The notes beneath the pieces were generated by a model. It was not told the DNA's origin, did no database searches, and saw only the letters and a program-made list of their open reading frames with translations. A DNA stretch of 64,000 bases from Trebonia kvetii (GTDB lineage Bacteria > Actinomycetota > Actinomycetes > Streptosporangiales > Streptosporangiaceae), in assembly GCF_007827045.1 (NCBI RefSeq), contig NZ_RPFW01000004.1:558001-622000 (forward strand), given 5' to 3'. Below, piece after piece: positions 24,753-40,582 of this stretch. Made by a program: the position numbers and the translations under genes. Position 1 is the first letter of the stretch. Each line of letters starts with the position of its first letter.

Positions 24753-24870
24753 GCATGACAACCCCGCATAACAACGGGGTGACGTTATCCGCATGAACGC
24801 CGGGTAACGCGCACAATAAGCACAATAAGCACAAATGGCGTTTGGTTTCAGCCTGGGGGAACGGGGCGCG

Positions 24871-26235
24871 ATGGTGAGTGCGACGGCACCTGCCCGCGGG
24901 GCACGCGAGGCGCAGCCGCCTGCCCGAATGAGGCGGCGGCTCATGGATTTGTCGACCACGCCGGGACGGCTGCGGCTGCTGCTCGCGGTGCTGGTCCTGC
25001 TCAGCCTGGCCTGGGGCGCGCTCGCCGCGTTCACCGCGAGCCAGTACTCGGCCGCGACGGCTGGTGTCGTCAGCGTCCGCGAGCCGCTGAGCCTGGACGC
25101 CCTGCAGATTTACCAGCGGCTATCGGATGCGAATGACGCCGCGACGACCGCCTTCCTCATCAGCGGACTCGAACCGGCCGCCGTGCAGCAGCGGTACCTG
25201 GCCGACCTCACCGCGGCGGAGACCGGGCTGGAGGACGCGGTCGCCCGCGGCGGCGCCGGGTCCGGCGCGATCGCCCACGATCTGCGCACCCTGGCCACGG
25301 ACATCAGGCTGTACGACGGCGAGGTGCAGACCGCCGTCGCCGACAACCGGATCGGCCTGCCGCTCGGCGCCGCCTACCTGCGTGAGGCCTCGGGCCTGAT
25401 GCGCGACAAGCTGCTACCGAAGGCCAAGGACCTGTACGCGGCGGAGAACGCGAGTCTGCACGGCACCAGCGCCCATGCGACGGGGCTGCCGCTGATCGGC
25501 GGCACGGCCGCCGCGGGCCTCGCCGTCGGCACCGCGTTCTGCCTGGCGTTGCGCTGGCTCGGCAGGCGGACCAACCGGGTATTCAACGTCGGCCTGCTCG
25601 CCGCGGGCGCCGCGGTCGTCGTTTCGCTCGGCTGGCTTGGCGCGGCCTACGCGGTCGCCCGCGGCGATCTGCTCGACGCGCAGGCCCGCGGCTCCGCGAC
25701 CGTCGAGGCGCTCGCCCAGGTGGGGATCGCCGCCCAGGAGGCGCATGCCGATGAGAGTCTCACCTTGATCGACAATGCCGGCGACAAGGTTGTCCGCGTC
25801 GGCGACGAAACGTACCAGGCGGACTATACGAAGAAGCAGGACGCACTCGGCCCGGGGCCCGGCACGCTGCTGACCGCCGCGGTGACGGCGGCCCGCGGTA
25901 CCCCGGCCGCGCCGGCCGTCGCGGCGACGGTCCGCGACGCCGGGTCCTGGTTCGCCGCACACCACATCGTCCGCACTCTCGACGACAACGATATGCACGG
26001 CGCCTCGGTCGACTCCGTACTCAGCACGGCGCCCGGCACCGCTGGTGCGGCGTTCGTCCGGCTGTCGTCAGACATCTCCGCCGCGAGCAAGCTGGACCAG
26101 GCAGTCTTCGACTCCACCGCGCGATCCGCATCCGGCACCTACGCCGGCCTGGCATACGGCCTCGCGGCCGGCGCGCTGATCATGGCCGCCGGCTGCGCCT
26201 GGGGCGTCAGCCGTCGGCTCGCGGAGTACCGGTGA
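24871..26235 (+). CDS. glnX: GlnX-like four-helix membrane sensor (first copy)
   Basis: Probable receptor that passes the state of the overlapping binding lipoprotein to PknG. Helices (from ATG 24871): 1 at about 34-57 (LLLAVLVLLSLAWGALAAF), 2 and 3 separated by the cytoplasmic LGRRTNRVFN, and 4 near the end, leaving a short SRRLAEYR tail. Two helical outer domains of about 130 residues lie between. Size and layout match mycobacterial GlnX. The start is uncertain: 24871 has GGGGGAACGGGG upstream, while 24835 is longer with none. A paralogue lies at 37755. GTGA overlap with the next gene. Confidence 0.75.
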   Translation: MVSATAPARGAREAQPPARMRRRLMDLSTTPGRLRLLLAVLVLLSLAWGALAAFTASQYSAATAGVVSVREPLSLDALQIYQRLSDANDAATTAFLISGLEPAAVQQRYLADLTAAETGLEDAVARGGAGSGAIAHDLRTLATDIRLYDGEVQTAVADNRIGLPLGAAYLREASGLMRDKLLPKAKDLYAAENASLHGTSAHATGLPLIGGTAAAGLAVGTAFCLALRWLGRRTNRVFNVGLLAAGAAVVVSLGWLGAAYAVARGDLLDAQARGSATVEALAQVGIAAQEAHADESLTLIDNAGDKVVRVGDETYQADYTKKQDALGPGPGTLLTAAVTAARGTPAAPAVAATVRDAGSWFAAHHIVRTLDDNDMHGASVDSVLSTAPGTAGAAFVRLSSDISAASKLDQAVFDSTARSASGTYAGLAYGLAAGALIMAAGCAWGVSRRLAEYR

Positions 26236-27260
26236 CGCGCGGCGCGCCGGGCGGCGCCGTCCTTCGCCGGGCTCCCGCGCTCGCCACCGCCACTTTCGCG
26301 GCCGGCGTGCTCGCCGCGGCCGCGCTGGCAGGCTGCTCCGCCGCGCCGGGGCCGCACGCGGCGCAGGCTCCGCGTAGTCACCCGGCGGCGCCGGCGGCCG
26401 GTCACACGGCGCGTGCCAAGACGCAGGCCGTCGGCTCCGTCCCCGAGTGCAATCCCTACGCGTCGAGCCTGGCGCCGTTGGCTGGCACGCCGCAGGTGAC
26501 CACGGGCTCCTGGATGGCTCACATCCGCAAGCGCGGCCACCTCATCGCCGGCGTCGACCAGAACACCTACCACTTCGGCTACCTGAACCCACTCGACGGC
26601 CAGTTCGAGGGGTTCGACATCGACATGGTCAAGGCGGTGGCCCAGGCCATCTTCGGCAGCCCGGGCCATATCACGTATCGGGCGATCTCCGACGACCAGC
26701 GGAAGACTGACATACAGAACGGCAGCGTTGACATCGTGGCCCACACGATGACGATCCTCTGCAGCCGGCTGAAGGATGAGGACTTCTCCAGCGTCTACTT
26801 CACAGCGCATCAGCGGGTGCTCGTGCTCAAGGACTCCACGGTGACCGGCCTCGACCAGCTCGGCGGCCAGAAGGTGTGCGCGACGAAGGGATCTGACTCG
26901 GCCGGGTTCATCGCCCACTACAACGCGACATCACCGGTCGCCGAGCACCCCGTGGTGGTTCCGGTGACCTTCTGGACGGACTGCCTGGTCCTGCTGCAGC
27001 AGCGCCAGGTGGCGGCCGTCTCCACCGACGACACGATCCTGGAGGGCCTGCAGGCCCAGGACCCGTTCACCAAGCTCGTCGGCTCCAACCTGACCGACGA
27101 GCCCTACGGCCTAGCGATCGCCAAGCAGCACCCGGAATTCGTCCGCTTCGTCAACGCGGTGCTCGCCCGCATGTATAAGGACGGCTCGTGGGAAAAGAGC
27201 TACAACCACTGGGTCAGCCCTTCATACGTAACGCCCCCACAGCCCAAATACGCGAACTGA
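26232..27260 (+). CDS. glnH: GlnH-like amino-acid-binding lipoprotein
   Basis: Family 3 solute-binding protein. The signal peptide ends in lipobox LAGC (Cys about 35). The mature protein shows the two-lobe fold marks: HIRKRGHLIAGVDQNTYHFG, GQFEGFDIDMVKAVAQAI, RAISDDQRKTDIQNGSVDIV, then a short Arg segment for the ligand carboxylate and QLGGQKVCATKGS. No ABC permease or ATPase gene is nearby; it overlaps glnX by GTGA instead, which is the mycobacterial glnX-glnH arrangement that senses amino acids such as aspartate and glutamate. A hairpin terminator follows at 27315-27353. Confidence 0.82.
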   Translation: MTRGAPGGAVLRRAPALATATFAAGVLAAAALAGCSAAPGPHAAQAPRSHPAAPAAGHTARAKTQAVGSVPECNPYASSLAPLAGTPQVTTGSWMAHIRKRGHLIAGVDQNTYHFGYLNPLDGQFEGFDIDMVKAVAQAIFGSPGHITYRAISDDQRKTDIQNGSVDIVAHTMTILCSRLKDEDFSSVYFTAHQRVLVLKDSTVTGLDQLGGQKVCATKGSDSAGFIAHYNATSPVAEHPVVVPVTFWTDCLVLLQQRQVAAVSTDDTILEGLQAQDPFTKLVGSNLTDEPYGLAIAKQHPEFVRFVNAVLARMYKDGSWEKSYNHWVSPSYVTPPQPKYAN

Positions 27261-29355: not shown

Positions 29356-29407
29356 AATGTCCTGGCGAGCGGAATGTCGCCAGGCGGACAGGAGCGGGGA
29401 TTCGGCT

Positions 29408-30382
29408 ATGAGCACGGCGCGAGATGATTCGCCAGGCGCGAGAAAGTGCGTGGCGTGTTCAGCGGACTCCGCAGAACCGGTCATGACAGATCAAGATGGC
29501 TACTGCCCGTCCTGCGGGCAGCGGGTTGCCGTCGACAGGGACCATATGAAGGAGGACCTCGGCCAGGTGGCCGGGGTCAGCGACCGCGGCCTTCGCCACT
29601 CACGGAACGAAGACGCGATGCATTTCGCAGTCGCGGAAACGACTTCCGGCCCGGTGGCGGTCGCGATTGTCTCCGACGGCGTGTCCTCGGCGCCCCGGCC
29701 CGACGAGGCGTCATGGACAGCGGTCAACACCGGCATCACCGTGCTGGCCGAGGGCGCGGAGCGCGGCGAGGATCCGGCGGAGGTGTCCAAGATGGCGGTC
29801 AAGGCCGCCGGGCGGGCAGTCACCGAGCTGGCGGACGCCGGGGGTGCGCCGGCGGCGACCTACCTGTCCGCGATTGTCAGCCAGCGGCAGATCACCGTGT
29901 GCTGGCTCGGCGATAGCCGCGCCTACTGGCTCGCGGCGAACTCGCCGGTCCAGGCGGGCCCGGACGCCACCATCGACATCACCGGCGGGTCAAAGCGCGT
30001 GACCAGGGACGACTCGCTCGCCGAGGAGATCGTCGCGGCCGGCCTCGCCACCATGGACGAGGCGATGGCCTCGCCCCAGGCGCACGTGATCACCCGGTGG
30101 CTGGGTGCGGACCTGCCCGATCCCGAGGCGCACGTGGAGCAGTTCAGCCCGTCAGGACCCGGCGTCCTGCTGCTGTGCTCAGACGGACTATGGAATTACC
30201 GCCCGGAGGCCGCGGAACTGGCCGCCATGGCGATGCCCGCGGCGCTCACCCGCCCGCTCGACGCCTCCGCCGACCTCGCCAAGTTCGCGATTGACTCCGG
30301 TGGCCTCGACAACATCACGGTCGTCATCATCCCGTTCCCGCCGCGCGCCGACGCGTCTGCGGCAAACAACCACCACGGCTAG
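29408..30382 (+). CDS. Zinc-ribbon PP2C-type Ser/Thr phosphatase
   Basis: Metal-dependent protein phosphatase, the likely eraser for the nearby kinases. A four-cysteine ribbon (KCVACS ... GYCPSCGQRV) at about 13-40 precedes the PP2C domain. The domain's metal motifs are visible: SRNEDAMHF, IVSDGVSS, CWLGDSRAYW, LCSDGLWNY and GGLDNITVVI. ATG 29408 is the first start downstream of the predicted transcription start. The ribbon is of the same style as those in PknG and the FHA protein downstream, suggesting a shared partner. Length 324 residues; no membrane helix, so cytoplasmic. Confidence 0.9.
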   Translation: MSTARDDSPGARKCVACSADSAEPVMTDQDGYCPSCGQRVAVDRDHMKEDLGQVAGVSDRGLRHSRNEDAMHFAVAETTSGPVAVAIVSDGVSSAPRPDEASWTAVNTGITVLAEGAERGEDPAEVSKMAVKAAGRAVTELADAGGAPAATYLSAIVSQRQITVCWLGDSRAYWLAANSPVQAGPDATIDITGGSKRVTRDDSLAEEIVAAGLATMDEAMASPQAHVITRWLGADLPDPEAHVEQFSPSGPGVLLLCSDGLWNYRPEAAELAAMAMPAALTRPLDASADLAKFAIDSGGLDNITVVIIPFPPRADASAANNHHG

Positions 30383-30698: not shown

Positions 30699-31898
30699 GT
30701 GACGCCCGGGCCTGCCGGGACGCTGTCCGGCCCCGAGCGGGTGGCCGCGGTGCTCGCCGACCGCGACGCCATCCAGGCGAACCTGCTCGAGCTCGACAGT
30801 AACTACGCCAGGCAGGCCCTCGAGGGTGCGACGCTGACCGGGCTGACCAGGCAGCGCTGGGAGAAGGCATCGATCGCCCTGGCGTCCCTGTGGGAGACCT
30901 TCCTTGCCTATTCGGCCGTCGTTGACAGGATCGCCGTCCTGGGCGCAGTCCGTAAGCCATCAAGGAACGACCTGGCCGAGCTCGCCGGGCTGCTCTCCGA
31001 TGGCTGCGTGCAGCTGTCCGGGCCGAACGTCCCGCTCGCGCAGCGGGATCTGACAGCCAACGGCCGCCCTCCGGTGACCCTGGTGACCGCGGTCGGCACT
31101 ATGCGACGGGCCTTCGCCGAGGTAACCGAGGTGACCTCGGCCGTCGAGACGGTCTGGGCCGCGGTCGGCGCTCCCCTGGACGCGGCGACCGAGGAACTGG
31201 CACGCGTCCGGCCGCTGGTCGCCGGGCTCGGCGCCGACCTGGAGTCGGCGTTCGCCGAAGCCGAATCCGCCGTCGACGCGGCGCGCTCCGCGTCCAACAC
31301 CGATCCGCTCGCCCTGTGGCATGACGGGCGCACCGACACCTCGGCGGCCGACCTGGCGCGCGGGCAGGTCTCCGCGCTCACGCCGCGGATCGCCGAGCTC
31401 GCCCGGCTGCGGGAGCAGGCGCAGCGGCGGATCGCCAGCCTCTCGGCGGCCACCGCCGCCGCCCGCGGCGCGCGCAGCGACGCGGTGACGGCGTGGCGCG
31501 AGGCAGCGACACGGATCAGCGTGCTGCCGCCGCTGCCCCCCGACGTCCGCGAGCCGCCGGTGGCCGCACTCGGCGCGCTCGCGGCAGGCGGGCAGTGGAG
31601 CAGGCTGGCGGCGGAACTCGACCGCTGCGAGGCCGACCTGGCCAGGTCCGGTGAGCAGACCGACCGGGTGCGCCAGGCCGCGGCCGCGGCCATCGACAAG
31701 CGCGACGAACTGCGCGCGCTGCTGCGCGCGTACAAGGCCAAGGCCGGCCGCCTCGGCGCAGTCGAGGAATCTCGGGTGGCGGCCCGTTATGACGAGGCGT
31801 ACGCCCTGCTGTGGACGGCGCCCTGCGACCTGGCGTCGGCCGAGCCTGCCGTGGTCGCCTACCAGCGCGCGATCCTCGAAGGAGACGGACGGCGATGA
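30699..31898 (+). CDS. Alpha-helical coiled-coil protein upstream of pknG
   Basis: The 399 residues are almost entirely Ala/Leu/Arg/Glu-rich helix with no membrane segment or cysteine ribbon. Examples are LARVRPLVAGLGADLESAFAE and the heptad-like stretch ending RVRQAAAAAIDKRDELRALL. No family is recognised. GTG 30699 has only a weak GGGG ahead of it. The stop overlaps the pknG ATG (ATGA), so the two should be made in equal amounts; a scaffold or regulator of the kinase is a fair guess from context only. Related frames are expected beside other actinobacterial pknG genes. Confidence 0.75.
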   Translation: MTPGPAGTLSGPERVAAVLADRDAIQANLLELDSNYARQALEGATLTGLTRQRWEKASIALASLWETFLAYSAVVDRIAVLGAVRKPSRNDLAELAGLLSDGCVQLSGPNVPLAQRDLTANGRPPVTLVTAVGTMRRAFAEVTEVTSAVETVWAAVGAPLDAATEELARVRPLVAGLGADLESAFAEAESAVDAARSASNTDPLALWHDGRTDTSAADLARGQVSALTPRIAELARLREQAQRRIASLSAATAAARGARSDAVTAWREAATRISVLPPLPPDVREPPVAALGALAAGGQWSRLAAELDRCEADLARSGEQTDRVRQAAAAAIDKRDELRALLRAYKAKAGRLGAVEESRVAARYDEAYALLWTAPCDLASAEPAVVAYQRAILEGDGRR

Positions 31899-34300
31899 CT
31901 CAGGCGTGCGCCCAGCCGGGATGCGGCGGGACGATCCAGGACGGATACTGCGACGTTTGCGGGCTCGCGCCCGCGTCGGCGCCCGCCGGCTGGGCACTGG
32001 CGTCGGGTGGCGGCAGCATCCGCTACGCCGGCGCGGCCGCGGGCGGTGCCAGCTCAGGAGGTGCCAGCTCAGGTGGGCTGGGCACCGGCGCAACGGGCAG
32101 CGGCCCCACCGGCAGCTTCGCCTACAGCTCAGGTCCCGGCTCAGGTTCTGGCTCGAGTTCCGCGGGCACCGGCAGCCGCCGCGGCAGCCGGGGCTCGCGG
32201 GGAGGCAGCGGGCGGTCGTCGCGCGGCATGCTAGGGGCCGGGCTTGTCGAGGTGCCGCCGGTCGCGTATGTCGATCCCTCGTCCGCGGTCCTGGCCGACC
32301 CGCGAGTCCCGGAGAGCCGGCGGTTCTGCGGCAACTGCGGTCAAGCCGTCGGCCAGTCACGCGACGGTCGGCCCGGCCTGACCGAGGGGTTCTGCCCGAA
32401 CTGCCGCACCAGGTACTCCTTCAGCCCCAAGCTGGTGCCAGGCGAACTCGTCGCCGGGCAGTACGAGGTGCTCGGCTGCCTCGCGCACGGCGGACTCGGC
32501 TGGATCTACCTGGCCAGGGACCGCAACGTCAGCGACCGCTGGGTGGTGCTCAAGGGCCTGCTCAACACCGGGGACGCGGACGCCATGGAGGCCGCCGTCG
32601 CCGAGCGGCGGTTCCTGGCCCAGGTCGAGCACCCGAACATCGTCCGGATCTACAACTTCGTACAGCACACCAGCCAGGCAGACGGCGAGACCGCCGGCTA
32701 CATCGTCATGGAGTACGTGGGCGGCAAGTCGCTCAAGGAGATCCGCGTCGAGGCACGACAGCGCGGCGGTGTGGTGAAGCTAGAGCACGCGCTCGCCTAC
32801 GCGCTGGAGATCCTGCCCGCCTTCGGTTACCTGCACGACAGGGGCCTCGTCTACTGCGACTTCAAGCCGGACAACATCATCCAGACCGAGGAGCAGCTGA
32901 AGCTCATCGACATGGGCGGCGTCCGCTACATCGATGACGACGGCGCCATCTACGGCACGGTCGGCTACCAGGCGCCGGAGATCGAGACCGAGGGCCCGTC
33001 GCCGAGTTCCGACCTGTACACGGTCGGCCGGACCCTGGCCGTGCTCACCTTCGAGTTCCGCGGCTTCCAGGGCGAGTACCAGTTCAAGCTGCCCGAGTCC
33101 GAGCCGCTGCTCGCGCGGCACGAGTCCTACGCCCGGCTGCTGCGCCGCGCCACCCACGCCGACCCCGGACGCAGGTTCCAGTCGGCGGGGGAGATGGCCG
33201 AGCAGCTCACCGGGGTACTGCGCGAGGTGCTCTCGGTCGACGACGGCCGGCCGCGGCCCGCGTTCTCCGGCCTGTTCAGCCCGGAGCTGCGCGCGGTAGG
33301 CACCGACTTGATCCCGATACGCCAGAACGGTGCAGCGGTCACCGCGGCCGCGCCGCCTTCGCCTGCCGAGGTCATCGCGGGCCTGCCCGCTCCGCTCGCG
33401 GACGGCGGCGACCCGGCGGCCGGCTACCTGGCCCTGCTCGGCGGCCTCGAGCCCGCCCAGCAGGCCGAGAAGCTGCTCGCCGCGATCACGGGCGACGCGG
33501 GCGTGGATCCGGCCGTGGCCGGATCGCCGGAGACGAAGCTCGCCCTGGTCCGCGCGCTGATCGCGGCGGGCGACATGGACGCTGCCGGGTCCCACCTGAC
33601 CGAGTTGTCCGCTGCGGACCCGGGGGACTGGCGGATCACCTGGTACTGGGGACTGCACGAGCTGGCGGGCGGCAGGCCCGACAGGACGCTAGCCGCGTTC
33701 AGCGCGGTCTACGACGAGCTGCCAGGTGAGCTCGCGCCGAAGGTCGCGCTCGGGTTCGCGGCTGAGGCGGCCGGCGACCCGGCGATCGCGCGGCGGTACT
33801 TCCAGCTCGTGTGGACTATCGACCGCTCCCACGTCAGCGCCGGCTTCGGCCTGGCCAGGGCCTGTCTGGCGGCCGGCGACCGGGCCGGCGCCGTGGGTGC
33901 GGTGGCCGCGGTCCCCGAGACGTCAAGCCACTATGCCGCCGCGCAGATCTCGGCCGTCCGGCTGCTGGTCACCGGCGGCGCCGGCCAGTCGGACACCGAA
34001 CTGCGCCAGGCGGACCTGCGCCTCGGGCGGCTGTCGCTCGACGACAACGACCCGCGCAGGCACCAGCTCGGCGTGGAGATCCTGCGGGCCGCGCTCGACT
34101 GGGTGGCAGCCGTTCCCGACGGCGCGCGGCGCGGCGGCGGGCAGCCGGCCGGCGAGCGCATCCTCGGCTGCGAGCCGAACGAGCGGGCGCTGCGCTTCGG
34201 GCTCGAGCGCGGCTACCGTGCGCTCGCCAACCTGATACCCGAACGGCGGGTCGAGCTGGTCGACATGGCGAACAGCGTCCGGCCCCGGACTTGGCTATAG
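31895..34300 (+). CDS. pknG: PknG-type Ser/Thr kinase with zinc ribbon, rubredoxin and TPR domains
   Basis: Soluble kinase of the mycobacterial PknG family, which phosphorylates GarA to release control of glutamate metabolism. From ATG 31895: an extra ribbon (CAQPGCGG ... YCDVCG, 4-25), a Gly/Ser-rich linker to about 115, a rubredoxin-like domain (FCGNCGQ ... FCPNCRTRY, about 144-172), then the kinase (about 190-445) with the PknG-style glycine loop AHGGLGWIYLARD, lysine VVLKGLL near 219, catalytic loop GLVYCDFKPDNII and LIDMGGVR in place of DFG. The TPR region follows to 801. It is longer than the 750 residues of the M. tuberculosis protein because of the added N-terminal ribbon. Confidence 0.93.
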   Translation: MTQACAQPGCGGTIQDGYCDVCGLAPASAPAGWALASGGGSIRYAGAAAGGASSGGASSGGLGTGATGSGPTGSFAYSSGPGSGSGSSSAGTGSRRGSRGSRGGSGRSSRGMLGAGLVEVPPVAYVDPSSAVLADPRVPESRRFCGNCGQAVGQSRDGRPGLTEGFCPNCRTRYSFSPKLVPGELVAGQYEVLGCLAHGGLGWIYLARDRNVSDRWVVLKGLLNTGDADAMEAAVAERRFLAQVEHPNIVRIYNFVQHTSQADGETAGYIVMEYVGGKSLKEIRVEARQRGGVVKLEHALAYALEILPAFGYLHDRGLVYCDFKPDNIIQTEEQLKLIDMGGVRYIDDDGAIYGTVGYQAPEIETEGPSPSSDLYTVGRTLAVLTFEFRGFQGEYQFKLPESEPLLARHESYARLLRRATHADPGRRFQSAGEMAEQLTGVLREVLSVDDGRPRPAFSGLFSPELRAVGTDLIPIRQNGAAVTAAAPPSPAEVIAGLPAPLADGGDPAAGYLALLGGLEPAQQAEKLLAAITGDAGVDPAVAGSPETKLALVRALIAAGDMDAAGSHLTELSAADPGDWRITWYWGLHELAGGRPDRTLAAFSAVYDELPGELAPKVALGFAAEAAGDPAIARRYFQLVWTIDRSHVSAGFGLARACLAAGDRAGAVGAVAAVPETSSHYAAAQISAVRLLVTGGAGQSDTELRQADLRLGRLSLDDNDPRRHQLGVEILRAALDWVAAVPDGARRGGGQPAGERILGCEPNERALRFGLERGYRALANLIPERRVELVDMANSVRPRTWL

Positions 34301-35636: not shown

Positions 35637-36455
35637 ATGGCGACCTGCCCGTCCGGTCACGCGTCCGCCAGCGACGACTTCTGCGACGTCTGCGGCGTCC
35701 TGATCGGCGCCGCGCCCGAGCTTGGATTCGACGGCGGCCTAGGCAGCGGCGGCGCGGCCGCGCCCGATGGTGCCCAGGCGGCCGGCCTGACCGTCGTTGG
35801 CGGCGCACCGCCGGGTGAGGCCTGCCGGCAGTGCGGCGTCACCAGGGCGGGCCAGTTCTGCGAGTCCTGCGGCTATGACTTCACCACGGCCCTGGCCGCG
35901 CCGCACAGCGCAGCCTGGACTGTCGCGCCCGCGCCGGCCTCATCCGTGTCCGTCCCACCCGTGTCTGTCCCGCCCGCGCCGGCCAGCTTCGCGCCCGCAC
36001 CCGAGACTGTCGCGCCGGCGTCGGCGTCAGGTGCGGGCGTGCCGGGCGCCCCGGTGCACTGGGCCGCAGTGGTGACCGCGGATCGTGCCTACTTCGACAG
36101 CGTTCTGGCGGCCGACGGCCCCGACGTGGACACCATCTCGTTCCCCGCCTACTACCCGCAGCGCCAGTTCCCCCTCTCCGGCACCGAGATGCGGATCGGG
36201 CGGCGCAGCGTGTCGAGCGGCATCACCCCGGAGATCGACCTGTCCGTACCGCCGTCCGACCCCGGCGTGTCCCGGCTGCACGCGGTCCTGCTCAGGTCAC
36301 CAGACGGCACCTGGGCCGTCGTGGATCCCGGCTCCGCGAACGGGACGCTCGTCAACGGCACCGAGATCCCCGAGGGCCAGGCGGTGCCTGTCCGCCCCGG
36401 CGACCTCATCCACGTGGGCGCCTGGACCGCGATCAGCATCGTCAGCGAGCCCTGA
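35637..36455 (+). CDS. Zinc-ribbon FHA protein (GarA-type)
   Basis: Phosphothreonine-reading protein, the most likely GarA equivalent here. Two ribbon pairs (FCDVCG near 17; ACRQCG and FCESCG near 62-80) lead into a Pro/Ala/Ser-rich linker. A conserved WAAVVTADRAYFDSV segment and the FHA domain (about 180-270) follow, with intact binding residues RIGRRS, SRLHA and NGTLVNG. The same WxAVxTADRAYxDSV-FHA unit ends the kinase at 39179. ATG 35637 is two bases after the vWA stop, and DFCDVCG echoes the PknG ribbon. No GarA-style ETT phosphosite is obvious; APETVAPAS in the linker is a weak candidate. Confidence 0.88.
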   Translation: MATCPSGHASASDDFCDVCGVLIGAAPELGFDGGLGSGGAAAPDGAQAAGLTVVGGAPPGEACRQCGVTRAGQFCESCGYDFTTALAAPHSAAWTVAPAPASSVSVPPVSVPPAPASFAPAPETVAPASASGAGVPGAPVHWAAVVTADRAYFDSVLAADGPDVDTISFPAYYPQRQFPLSGTEMRIGRRSVSSGITPEIDLSVPPSDPGVSRLHAVLLRSPDGTWAVVDPGSANGTLVNGTEIPEGQAVPVRPGDLIHVGAWTAISIVSEP

Positions 36456-36500: not shown

Positions 36501-36533
36501 GTGAACATTCGCTTGCTGTCCGGTGAACATTCG
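36501..36533 (-). promoter_or_regulatory. Direct repeats GTGAACATTCG, PHO-box-like
   Basis: GTGAACATTCG at 36501-36511 and 36523-36533, 22 bases apart. On the minus strand each carries GTTCAC, the core of actinobacterial PhoP/PHO boxes whose units repeat every 11 bases. It lies 116 bases before the PstS-like gene. Confidence 0.45.
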
Positions 36534-36648: not shown

Positions 36649-37758
36649 GTGGGGGGCAGGGGACGACGCTGGGGGACCCCGACGGCGCGCGCGGCGCTCG
36701 GGACGGCGATTGCCGTGCTCGTCGCGGCCTGCGGGACCGCCGGGCACGGGGCCGGCGCTACCGCGCTGTCGGCATCGACGCAGACGATCTCGGAGGCAGG
36801 CAGCAGCCTGCTGTATCCGCTCGCGCAGGACTGGGCGTCCGCCTATCAGCGGAGTACCTCCGGTGTGACCGTGAGCGCCAAGTCCACGAGCTCGGGCAAG
36901 GGGATCAACGCCGCCTCCTCGGGCTCCGTCGACATCGGCGCGTCCGACGCCTACCTGTCAAGCGGCGACCTCGTCAAGAATCACAAACTGCTCAACATCC
37001 CCCTGGTCATCTCGGCGCAGACGATCATCTACAACCTGCCGAGCCTCAGCAATGGCACGCACATCAACCTGAACGGCACCGTGCTCGCGGACATCTACAG
37101 TGGCACCATCACGAACTGGGATGACAAGCTGATCAAGCAGCTCAACCAGAAGGTACCGCTGCCGTCGCTGCCCATCCGCCCGGTGCACCGCTCGGACAAC
37201 TCGGGCGACACGTTCCTGTTCACCAGCTACCTGTCGACCCAGGACCCCGACTGGGACAGCAGAATCGGCTACGGCACGCGAGCGGCCTGGCCGCAGGTCG
37301 CCGGTAACCTGAGCGCGGGCAGCAGCACCGAGGTGGAAAAGACGTGCGCGGCGACCCCCGGGTGCGTGGCGTACAACGGCATCAGCTTCCTGCCTCAGGC
37401 GCTGAACGACAATCTCGGTTACGCGAGCCTTGCGAACACGGTCGGCACGCCCACACTGCCTACCACCGCGGCGATCCAGGCGGCCGCCGCCCCCTTCGTC
37501 AACCTGACGCCGCCCAACGAGACCATCGCGATGATCGACGGGCCGGCCGCCACCGGGTACCCGATCGTCAACTACGAGTACGCAGTGGTCAGCGTCACCC
37601 AGCCAACCGCCGCCAAGGCCAGCGCGATCAAGAGCCTCCTGCGCTGGGCCCTTACCACCGGCAACGGGTCCGGCTACTTGAGCAAGTACGGCTTCCAGCG
37701 GCTGCCTGACACGCTAGTCGCGCTCGGCATGCAGCAGATCGCGGAGATCGGCTCATGA
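36649..37758 (+). CDS. PstS-like phosphate-binding lipoprotein without transporter genes
   Basis: Periplasmic-type phosphate-binding protein. GTG 36649 is chosen because GAGGAG lies 7 bases upstream and it gives a normal signal peptide ending in lipobox VAAC (Cys28); the longer frame from 36523 starts inside a repeat. PstS marks are visible: EAGSSLLYPL, SSGKGI, DIGASDAYL, ADIYSGTITNWDD and the phosphate loop HRSDNSGDTF. No pstC, pstA or pstB is nearby. Instead the stop overlaps a GlnX-like receptor gene (ATGA), mirroring glnH-glnX, so a sensory role is proposed. PHO-box-like repeats lie upstream. Confidence 0.85.
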   Translation: MGGRGRRWGTPTARAALGTAIAVLVAACGTAGHGAGATALSASTQTISEAGSSLLYPLAQDWASAYQRSTSGVTVSAKSTSSGKGINAASSGSVDIGASDAYLSSGDLVKNHKLLNIPLVISAQTIIYNLPSLSNGTHINLNGTVLADIYSGTITNWDDKLIKQLNQKVPLPSLPIRPVHRSDNSGDTFLFTSYLSTQDPDWDSRIGYGTRAAWPQVAGNLSAGSSTEVEKTCAATPGCVAYNGISFLPQALNDNLGYASLANTVGTPTLPTTAAIQAAAAPFVNLTPPNETIAMIDGPAATGYPIVNYEYAVVSVTQPTAAKASAIKSLLRWALTTGNGSGYLSKYGFQRLPDTLVALGMQQIAEIGS

Positions 37759-39092
37759 CCACCACCCTGCCAGCCTCCCGCTCGCCAGGCGCCGCACCGC
37801 CACCCGCCCGCCGGGGTGGCAGGCGGGGCGCCGCGCCGCGCGACAGCCGGCCCGCGCTCACCACGCCGTCCGCGCTGCGGGCACTGCTCGTGGGCCTTGT
37901 CCTGCTTTCGCTCGCCTGGGGAGCGCTCGGCGGCTGGGTAGCCACCCAGCACGCCTCCGCCGCCTCGGCCCTGGTCACCGTCGACGAGCCGCTCAGCCTC
38001 GGCGCGCAGCAGATGTACCGGGACATCGCCGACGCCGACGCGACGATCACCGCGACTTACCTCACCGGACAGGCGTCCGCGGCTGACCTGCGGCGCTACC
38101 AGAGCGACATCAGGGATGCGTCGACCCACCTGGCCGCGCTGCAGGGCGGCGGCCAGGCAAGCGCAGCGCTGACCGCGCTCAGCGCGGGGATGCCCGTCTA
38201 CGCCGGCTACGTCGGCAAGGCGCAGACGGAGTACGCGATGGGCTACCCGCTGACCGGCGGCTCCTTCCTTCAGGTCGCCTCGGAACAGGCGCACCTGGTG
38301 CTCCTGCCCGCCGCGAGCACGGTCTTCGACCGGGAAAACGCCGCGCTCGACACGGCGAGCGGGCAGGCGACCGAGTGGCCGACGATGATCGCGGCGCTGG
38401 TGCTCGCCGTGGTGACCGGCTTTGTGCTGTTCCGGGCGCAGCGCTGGCTGGCACGGCGCACCAACAGGATGTTCAGCCCCGGCCTGGTCGTCGCCTCGCT
38501 GCTGCTCGTTATCGGCGCGGCGTGGCTCACCGCCGGGTTCCTTTCCGCCCGCTCCGACCTTGACCGCGGCATCGGCCACGGTTCTGTCCCCGCGCAGGAC
38601 CTGGCACGGGCGTCCATCGGCGTGCAGCAGATCAGGGGCGACGCCGTGCTCAACGTGATCTCCCGCAGCGGCAGCGCCTCGTTCTCCGACAACTTCGCGA
38701 GCACGAGCAAGCAGGTCGGCCCCGGACCTGGCAGCTGGCTCGGCGCCGCCGCCGCGGCCCAGGCAGGCACGGGGACGGCGACGTCGCTCATCGCCGAGGC
38801 GCAGCGGGACGCGACCTCCTGGTATGCCGCGAACGCAAAAATCTACCCACTCGGCAACGCGGCCGACTACGCGGGCGAGCGGAAAAGCGTCATCGGCGCC
38901 ACCGACGGCTACAGTGCGCTCGAGACCGCCATCACCAGCGCGATCAAGGCCGACCAGGCCGTATTCGAGTCGGCGGCCTCCTCGGGCAGCGGCACCCTCG
39001 GCCCGCTCGTCTGGGTCGTGATCGTCACCTCGGTGCTGATGGCGCTGGGTTCAGCGTGGGCTCTCTCCCGGAGACTTGCCGAATACCGTTAA
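37755..39092 (+). CDS. GlnX-like four-helix membrane sensor (second copy)
   Basis: Paralogue of the protein at 24871. Shared stretches include VLLSLAWGAL in helix 1, EPLSLGAQQMYRDIADADA after it, the cytoplasmic RRTNRMF between helices 2 and 3, GPGPGSWL and T/W-SWYAAN in outer domain 2, and the terminal SRRLAEYR. Four helices and two outer helical domains of about 130 residues are kept. It overlaps the PstS-like gene by ATGA and is followed after 86 bases by a soluble kinase. The likely job is to relay phosphate-binding-protein status to a cytoplasmic kinase; this is inference from the GlnH-GlnX-PknG model. Confidence 0.85.
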   Translation: MTTTLPASRSPGAAPPPARRGGRRGAAPRDSRPALTTPSALRALLVGLVLLSLAWGALGGWVATQHASAASALVTVDEPLSLGAQQMYRDIADADATITATYLTGQASAADLRRYQSDIRDASTHLAALQGGGQASAALTALSAGMPVYAGYVGKAQTEYAMGYPLTGGSFLQVASEQAHLVLLPAASTVFDRENAALDTASGQATEWPTMIAALVLAVVTGFVLFRAQRWLARRTNRMFSPGLVVASLLLVIGAAWLTAGFLSARSDLDRGIGHGSVPAQDLARASIGVQQIRGDAVLNVISRSGSASFSDNFASTSKQVGPGPGSWLGAAAAAQAGTGTATSLIAEAQRDATSWYAANAKIYPLGNAADYAGERKSVIGATDGYSALETAITSAIKADQAVFESAASSGSGTLGPLVWVVIVTSVLMALGSAWALSRRLAEYR

Positions 39093-39178: not shown

Positions 39179-40582
39179 GTGGCCGGGGAATCCCCAGCGC
39201 AGCTGAGCGGCCCGCTGACCGGACTCGCCCCGGGCATTCGCGTGGCCGGGTACCTGCTTGAGCAACTCGTCGGCGTGGGCGGGATGGCGGCGGTGTACCG
39301 CGCGCGGGACGAGCGGCTCGGCCGGGTGGTGGCACTGAAGCTGCTGGCTGGCGACGAGTCGGTCAGGAGCAGGTTCGTCCGTGAGGCGCGAGCGGTCGCG
39401 GCGGTTGACCACCCGCACATCATCCCCGTGTACGCGGCGGGCGAGGCAGACGGCGTGCAGTACATCGCGATGCGCTTCGTGGCGGGCGACACCCTGCAGG
39501 GGGTGCTCCGCACCGCGGGAACGCTGACGCCGCGCCGCGCCGCGTCGTTCATCTCCCCAGTGGCGTCCGCCCTGGACGCCGCGCACGCGGCGGGGCTTGT
39601 CCACCGCGACGTCAAGCCGGGCAACATCCTGGTGGACTCCAGGCGCGGCGGCCCCGAGCACGCCTACCTGACCGACTTCGGCATCGCCAGGGCGATGCTG
39701 TCGATGGGCACCCTGACCGTCGCCGGGCAGTTCCTCGGTACCCCGGACTACGCGGCGCCCGAGCAGATCAACGGCCAGCCGGTGGACGGCCGCGCCGACC
39801 AGTACGCCCTCGCCTGCGTGGCCTACGAGATGCTGACAGGCACCGTCCCGTTCCCCAGGGACTCGGCCTGGTCGGTGCTCTACGCCCACCTCAACGAGCC
39901 GCCGCCGCTCGTCACCAGGATCCGCCCGGAACTGCCGCGCGCCCTCCACGACGTGCTGGCCATCGCCCTCGCGAAGTCACCGGACTACCGGTATCCCACC
40001 TGCGGCGACTTCGCCGACGCGCTGCGCCTGGCCCTGGGCCTCGATCACTACGACCCGGCCCGCTTCCCGTCCCAGCCGGGCACCGCCGCCGTGCCGTTGC
40101 CCCCGCAGGGCACCGCGCCCGTGAGGCTACCGACGCCGACCCTCGTCGAACCCAAACCGGAATCCGCCACCCCCGATCCGACACGCCCCTGGACCGCGGT
40201 GATCACCGCGGACCGCGCCTACTACGACAGCGTCCAGGTGGCTGGCGACTCCGACGCGGGCGACATCGACTTCCCCGAGGATTACGCCGAACGACGCATC
40301 CCGCTGACTGGCACCGAGATCCGCATCGGCTGCCGCAGCGCGTCCAAGGGCATCGAGCCGGAGATCGACCTGAAGGGCCCGCCACGGGACCTCGGTGTGT
40401 CCCGCCTGCACGCCAAGCTCGTCCCCACCCCCGACGGCGCCTGGACGGTCGTTGACCTGGACTCGGTGAACGGCATCCAGGTCAACGGTCGTGACGTCAC
40501 ACCGGGCGATCCTGTCCGCCTCGCCCCGGGCGACCACATCCACCTCGGCTCCTGGACCAAGATCACCCTCACCCAGGCTTAA
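39179..40582 (+). CDS. Soluble Ser/Thr kinase with C-terminal degenerate FHA domain
   Basis: PknB-type kinase at about 20-290: VGVGGMAAVYRARD, VALKLLAG (Lys about 55), LVHRDVKPGNIL, TDFGIARAM, GTPDYAAPEQ. All catalytic motifs are intact. A Pro-rich linker and the WTAVITADRAYYDSV segment precede an FHA domain (about 380-465). There the usual Gly-Arg is Gly-Cys (RIGCRS) and NGT is NGI, so phosphothreonine binding may be altered. No membrane helix. GTG 39179 is chosen for the GAGGAGGG just upstream; upstream ATGs lack one. It is the last gene of the cluster and may replace PknG as partner of the second GlnX. Confidence 0.9.
   Translation: MAGESPAQLSGPLTGLAPGIRVAGYLLEQLVGVGGMAAVYRARDERLGRVVALKLLAGDESVRSRFVREARAVAAVDHPHIIPVYAAGEADGVQYIAMRFVAGDTLQGVLRTAGTLTPRRAASFISPVASALDAAHAAGLVHRDVKPGNILVDSRRGGPEHAYLTDFGIARAMLSMGTLTVAGQFLGTPDYAAPEQINGQPVDGRADQYALACVAYEMLTGTVPFPRDSAWSVLYAHLNEPPPLVTRIRPELPRALHDVLAIALAKSPDYRYPTCGDFADALRLALGLDHYDPARFPSQPGTAAVPLPPQGTAPVRLPTPTLVEPKPESATPDPTRPWTAVITADRAYYDSVQVAGDSDAGDIDFPEDYAERRIPLTGTEIRIGCRSASKGIEPEIDLKGPPRDLGVSRLHAKLVPTPDGAWTVVDLDSVNGIQVNGRDVTPGDPVRLAPGDHIHLGSWTKITLTQA

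Follow-up and report, generated by a model that had tools for sequence, protein, structure and literature searches.

The closest described system is GlnH-GlnX-PknG, which serves amino-acid signalling in Mycobacterium smegmatis, M. tuberculosis and Corynebacterium glutamicum (PMC6069109, PMC9769921). GlnX of C. glutamicum has a helical-tandem architecture, and comparison of structures has revealed relatives of its individual bundles; contacts of GlnH with GlnX and of GlnX with PknG are undemonstrated in the literature (PMC9769921). The TPR domain of PknG is the published candidate for the inner partner of GlnX (PMC6069109, PMC8546545). In phosphate chemotaxis of Pseudomonas aeruginosa, PstS docks on the chemoreceptor CtpL (PMC4926252), and XylFII-LytS, as cited in PMC9769921, combines a sugar-binding protein with a four-helix-bundle histidine kinase. 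The authors of the GlnH study foresaw further links of binding proteins to kinases (PMC6069109). It is already known that GlnX-family proteins are recognised by NCBIfam and that binding-protein receptors act in chemotaxis. New is a PstS in a GlnH-type pairing with a GlnX, a variant of GlnH-GlnX-PknG, which is encoded in the stretch of 64,000 nucleotides analysed here (the window).

The pair and its surroundings

The PstS*-GlnX2 pair forms the back end of a complete PknG operon in which a GlnX and a GlnH are present as well (Table 1). The genes of the block are ordered GlnX1-GlnH (24835-27260), pyruvate kinase, PP2C phosphatase, the 399-residue protein, PknG, VWA, zinc-ribbon/FHA protein and PstS*-GlnX2. 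The phosphatase gene is kept between the PknG and VWA genes in relatives, the 399-residue protein is without a Pfam or NCBIfam match, and the real start of PknG may lie further inside its open reading frame. The genome (G000; 9.25 Mb in 93 contigs) holds two GlnX genes, both inside the window, and several further PstS genes, one of which adjoins pstC and pstA. A duplicated FHA module brackets the pair: the downstream kinase has an FHA domain with 52% identity to the stand-alone zinc-ribbon/FHA protein.

Table 1. Features of the window, and GlnX loci of other genomes that adjoin SBP_bac_1 lipoproteins
Feature	Position	Strand	Basis
PstS*, PstS-type phosphate-binding lipoprotein	36649-37758	+	TIGR00975 291 bits; 1pc3 E 7e-95; AlphaFold model
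GlnX2, GlnX-family receptor	37755-39092	+	NF058618 257.7 bits; model; hydropathy
ATGA stop/start overlap of PstS* and GlnX2	37755-37758	+	sequence; likewise in L133 and L197
Direct repeat GTGAACATTCG, two copies 22 bp apart	36501-36533	.	same spacing before the pair in L133
Zinc-ribbon/FHA protein, final PknG-block gene preceding the pair	35637-36455	+	PF00498 53.9 bits
Soluble Ser/Thr kinase with C-terminal FHA, directly 3' of GlnX2	39179-40582	+	PF00069, PF00498
PknG (rubredoxin, kinase and TPR domains)	31811-34300	+	PF16918 275 bits, PF16919, PF00069
GlnX1, GlnH-linked paralog of GlnX2	24835-26235	+	NF058618 303.6 bits
GlnH, amino-acid-binding type lipoprotein	26232-27260	+	resembles GlnH from related PknG operons
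PP2C-type phosphatase of the PknG operon	29357-30382	+	assigned by sequence
Conserved 399-aa protein (cc399), gene preceding PknG	30699-31898	+	follows GlnX in L195 and L197
SBP_bac_1-linked GlnX loci	L077:8925-11659, L126:4120-6452, L083:8829-11044, L135:9158-11637, L138:10201-12560, L069, L071, L074		

A preliminary description had reported a PstS-like lipoprotein gene and a GlnX-like gene that share ATGA, a glnX-glnH pair that overlaps by GTGA in the opposite gene order, and the retention of the motifs HRSDNSGDTF and GASD. All of this is borne out, the GTGA being found at 26232-26235. PstS* has a GTG start, a GAGGAG ribosome-binding site and the lipobox VLVAAC. Its score exceeds the cut-off of the PstS equivalog TIGR00975 (205 bits), and its profile family is PBP_like_2/PstS, not SBP_bac_3. 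The solved structure nearest to its AlphaFold model (pLDDT 83.5) is M. tuberculosis PstS-1, with an rmsd of 1.3 Å and about 50% identity. HRSDNSGDTF and GASD coincide with R135-T141 and D56, which are phosphate ligands in E. coli PstS. At the contact sites PstS* has S, L, S, D, R, S, G and D, against T, L, S, D, R, S, G and D in M. tuberculosis PstS1; the contacts are kept with the one conservative change T10S.

The receptor gene starts with ATG. Its product is GlnX-like, as had also been proposed: it narrowly exceeds the cut-off of 250 bits for NF058618 ('GlnX family signal transduction membrane protein'; residues 36-445), while it stays far below that of the equivalog for PknG-activating GlnX, NF041460 (87.5 against 780 bits). 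The model (pLDDT 91.1, pTM 0.84) is all helical with long helices, and hydropathy peaks at residues 40, 208, 245 and 419 give four transmembrane segments, which agrees with the helical tandem described for GlnX of C. glutamicum (PMC9769921). There are two periplasmic helical bundles, an eight-residue C-terminal tail, SRRLAEYR, and no cytoplasmic output domain. A C-terminal motif near RLxEYR is present in most members of the GlnX family, including those paired with SBP_bac_1 proteins. A whole-chain fold search of the PDB gave no significant match.

Between the GlnX2 group and the four nearest GlnH-linked GlnX, 13 positions are differently fixed (L129, Y152, G169, S170, Q173, V174, R294, G295, N300, S303, F310, Y372 and E390). 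The periplasmic bundles contain all 13, the cytoplasmic loop and the tail none; loop and tail have between-group identities of 0.60 and 0.80, respectively. Judging from helix limits and secondary structure, and not from coordinates, most of them would be near the membrane-distal bundle ends. Periplasmic change combined with a conserved loop and tail agrees with an outer docking partner that is new and an inner partner that has stayed the same.

The direct repeat upstream of PstS* is probably an operator. It reads GTTCAC-N16-GTTCAC on the minus strand and is the only match with this spacer in the genome, while GTGAAC-type repeats with the same 22-bp distance precede the pair in another genome, G314 (L133, 7446-7473). 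PHO boxes, the sites of the PhoP-type phosphate regulon, consist of tandem 11-bp repeats of the GTTCACC type at phosphate genes. The reading of the repeat as a PHO box lacks genome-wide support, and the name is not warranted: a spacing of 11 or 22 bp shows no enrichment over the genome, and the repeat is missing before the pst operon of this genome.

Recurrence and descent

The pair is found in five genomes of four genera, all of one family (Streptosporangiaceae MAGs): the window genome, G314 (Streptosporangiaceae MAG JAFARZ01, L133), G463 (L195), G439 (L196) and G433 (L197). The genes overlap by TGATG in L195. In L196 they are adjacent with a gap of about 100 bp, and as in the window they are located behind VWA-FHA, with a zinc-ribbon/FHA gene preceding PstS; GlnX runs past the contig end. 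The order in L195 is PstS-GlnX-cc399-PknG-PP2C-VWA, so that the pair occupies the glnX-glnH place directly before the PknG genes, and in L197 it is PstS-GlnX-cc399, followed by the contig end. The pair of L133 stands alone, far from PknG. The PstS-GlnX pair shares an operon with PknG at the back in the window and in L196 and at the front in L195, and complete direct contact with the PknG gene block is seen in one genome only (G463). In relatives, GlnX-GlnH is commonly located at the block front or behind FHA, and the PstS-GlnX pair therefore takes positions held elsewhere by GlnX-GlnH. No pstC, pstA or pstB was seen beside the five GlnX-linked PstS genes, and separate PstS genes adjoin pstC in G000, G463, G439 and G374.

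A survey of 297 sampled genomes of the class and of relatives (family coverage about 250 genomes) gave about 70 other GlnX loci, in all of which PstS is absent beside GlnX; GlnH, SBP_bac_1 or no binding protein is found instead. The pairing is rare. The preliminary description had suggested conservation of the adjacency across actinobacteria as a check: the pair is indeed kept, without transporter genes, in five genomes, but within a single family, and wider conservation is not supported. Its supposition that the pairing had gone unnoticed agrees with the openly licensed literature searched, in which no paper was found that mentions a pairing of PstS with GlnX.

The five GlnX-linked PstS proteins form one clade (support 97/91; 98% of bootstrap trees), nested among transporter PstS and excluding the PstC-linked ones, in a tree from which L175 was left out. 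Closest to this clade are one pstC-linked PstS and the orphan PstS of G374; outside the clade, PstS1-type proteins have pstC next to them with few exceptions. Likewise, a single clade (96% SH-aLRT) within the GlnH-linked GlnX unites the four complete PstS-linked GlnX, and its sister is the GlnX of G374, which no binding protein adjoins. Both relatives are therefore present in G374 in unlinked form. This GlnX heads a PknG operon, and the orphan PstS adjoins pstSCAB-phoU genes (L162:8936-11652; L198:8374-9501). The mirror-tree correlation between PstS and GlnX is weak (r 0.59), with 7 of 120 permutations as high.

GlnH was found in G000 and G314, and a search gave none in G463, G433, G439 and G374, with assemblies that are 67-91% complete. 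Owing to this incompleteness each absence is weak singly; the four jointly fit a replacement. The five assemblies with the pair are fragmented or partly contaminated, so that a missing GlnH could be a gap.

Divergent GlnX paralogs make up a separate clade adjoining SBP_bac_1 lipoproteins, and in L077, L126 and L083 they are preceded by a PknG-like and a VWA gene. With SBP_bac_1 lipoproteins also as partners, GlnX seems to serve as a receptor for binding proteins in general.

Proposed function and its alternatives

On the basis of the gene pairing, the co-inheritance, the operon position, the domain make-up and the placement of divergence, we favour with moderate confidence a function of PstS* as a membrane-anchored phosphate binder for signalling and of GlnX2 as its receptor, with a kinase output and an origin from GlnX-GlnH. 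The analogy with GlnH-GlnX and CtpL-PstS (PMC4926252) suggests that phosphate-loaded PstS* would dock and that the signal would reach a soluble kinase. Phosphate would close PstS*, which would dock on the membrane-distal ends of both periplasmic helical bundles of GlnX2. The transmembrane helices would carry the change to the short cytoplasmic loop and the RRLAEYR tail, and these would act, by activation or inhibition, on a soluble Ser/Thr kinase, most likely PknG; in the window the adjacent FHA-kinase might be an alternative or additional target. As to its origin, a GlnX-GlnH system may have captured a PstS1-type transporter binding protein, with PstS-GlnX replacing GlnH as the PknG input in some genomes and being added as a second input in others. 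A sensor swap, by which PstS informs PknG (or the adjacent FHA-kinase in the window) of phosphate through GlnX, is likely.

PknG is favoured as the output because the L195 pair heads the PknG genes with no other kinase near. That the receptor of the window would instead act on the FHA-kinase deserves serious consideration but is less likely. The kinase gene directly follows GlnX2 on the same strand, its product has no transmembrane peak in hydropathy, and the FHA domain of the kinase shares 52% identity with the separate FHA protein encoded ahead of PstS*. Against this output, no such kinase adjoins the pair in L195 and no kinase at all in L133, and the cytoplasmic segments of GlnX2 match those of PknG-linked GlnX.

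Phosphate as the ligand of PstS* would follow from S38, D56, R135, S139, G140 and the PstS1-type Asp at T141, all of which are kept in the window and in three others of the paired PstS. It is rather improbable that another oxyanion or a new ligand is bound by a recruited PstS fold with a drifting site. Such drift would accord with T10, which is S, G or N in part of the clade, and with the longer end branches of GlnX-linked PstS (0.50 vs 0.20). In the paired PstS of G439 (L196:2600-3739) the phosphate loop SGDT is changed to SAAT, together with T10N and F11E; ligands may therefore differ within the clade, and that of G439 is perhaps not phosphate.

Very unlikely is a role of PstS* in ordinary phosphate transport, as the binding protein of a PstCAB with genes at another place, its adjacency to GlnX2 being an operon accident. 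PstS* does have the fold and the binding site of a transport PstS, and one binding protein can serve a transporter as well as a receptor, as CtpL-PstS illustrates (PMC4926252). However, the five recurrences in three different gene settings, the tie between a single PstS clade and a single GlnX clade, the failure to find GlnH where PstS leads the PknG operon and the separate pstS beside pstC in most of these genomes argue against it. Finally, ATGA overlaps are common in bacteria and by themselves prove little, but a chance overlap is ruled out by the two clades and the recurrence, as an overlapping pair in three of the four other genomes.

Significance and comparison with known systems

Which stimuli act on bacterial Ser/Thr kinases is still unsettled; GlnH-GlnX-PknG is among the rare systems for which a ligand has been proposed. 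It is conceivable, though we put it forward tentatively, that GlnX constitutes a modular actinobacterial receptor class wiring extracellular binding proteins of different families (SBP_bac_3 for amino acids, PstS for phosphate and SBP_bac_1 of the sugar type) to PknG-type kinases, with the input of PknG swapped from aspartate/glutamate to phosphate in some lineages. A natural exchange of binding proteins in front of one and the same set of kinase genes would reveal a modular receptor, and would connect the supply of phosphate with the 2-oxoglutarate node, which PknG controls. PknG, a central metabolic kinase, may listen to phosphate instead of, or beside, aspartate and glutamate; if so, external phosphate would gate carbon-nitrogen flux. 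Through the 13 periplasmic positions, the exchange itself would allow the site of docking to be tested.

Like M. tuberculosis PstS1, its closest solved structure, PstS* has the SGDT loop; PstS1 serves ABC phosphate transport, whereas PstS* is without adjoining pstC, pstA or pstB. In CtpL-PstS, as probably here, PstS presents phosphate to a transmembrane receptor. The difference is that the transporter's own periplasmic PstS and a chemoreceptor are employed there, and a separate lipoprotein and a GlnX here. In XylFII-LytS, a four-helix bundle in the periplasm is the docking site of the binding protein, which would be paralleled by PstS*-GlnX2; the binding-protein family is another one and the output is a histidine kinase. 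With GlnH-GlnX-PknG the locus has in common a GlnX receptor with two periplasmic bundles, a lipoprotein partner, a PknG operon and a conserved loop and tail. It differs in its partner, a PstS (PBP_like_2, TIGR00975) and not GlnH (SBP_bac_3 according to PMC9769921), and in the reversed gene order of PstS-GlnX, which takes the place of GlnH in two genomes.
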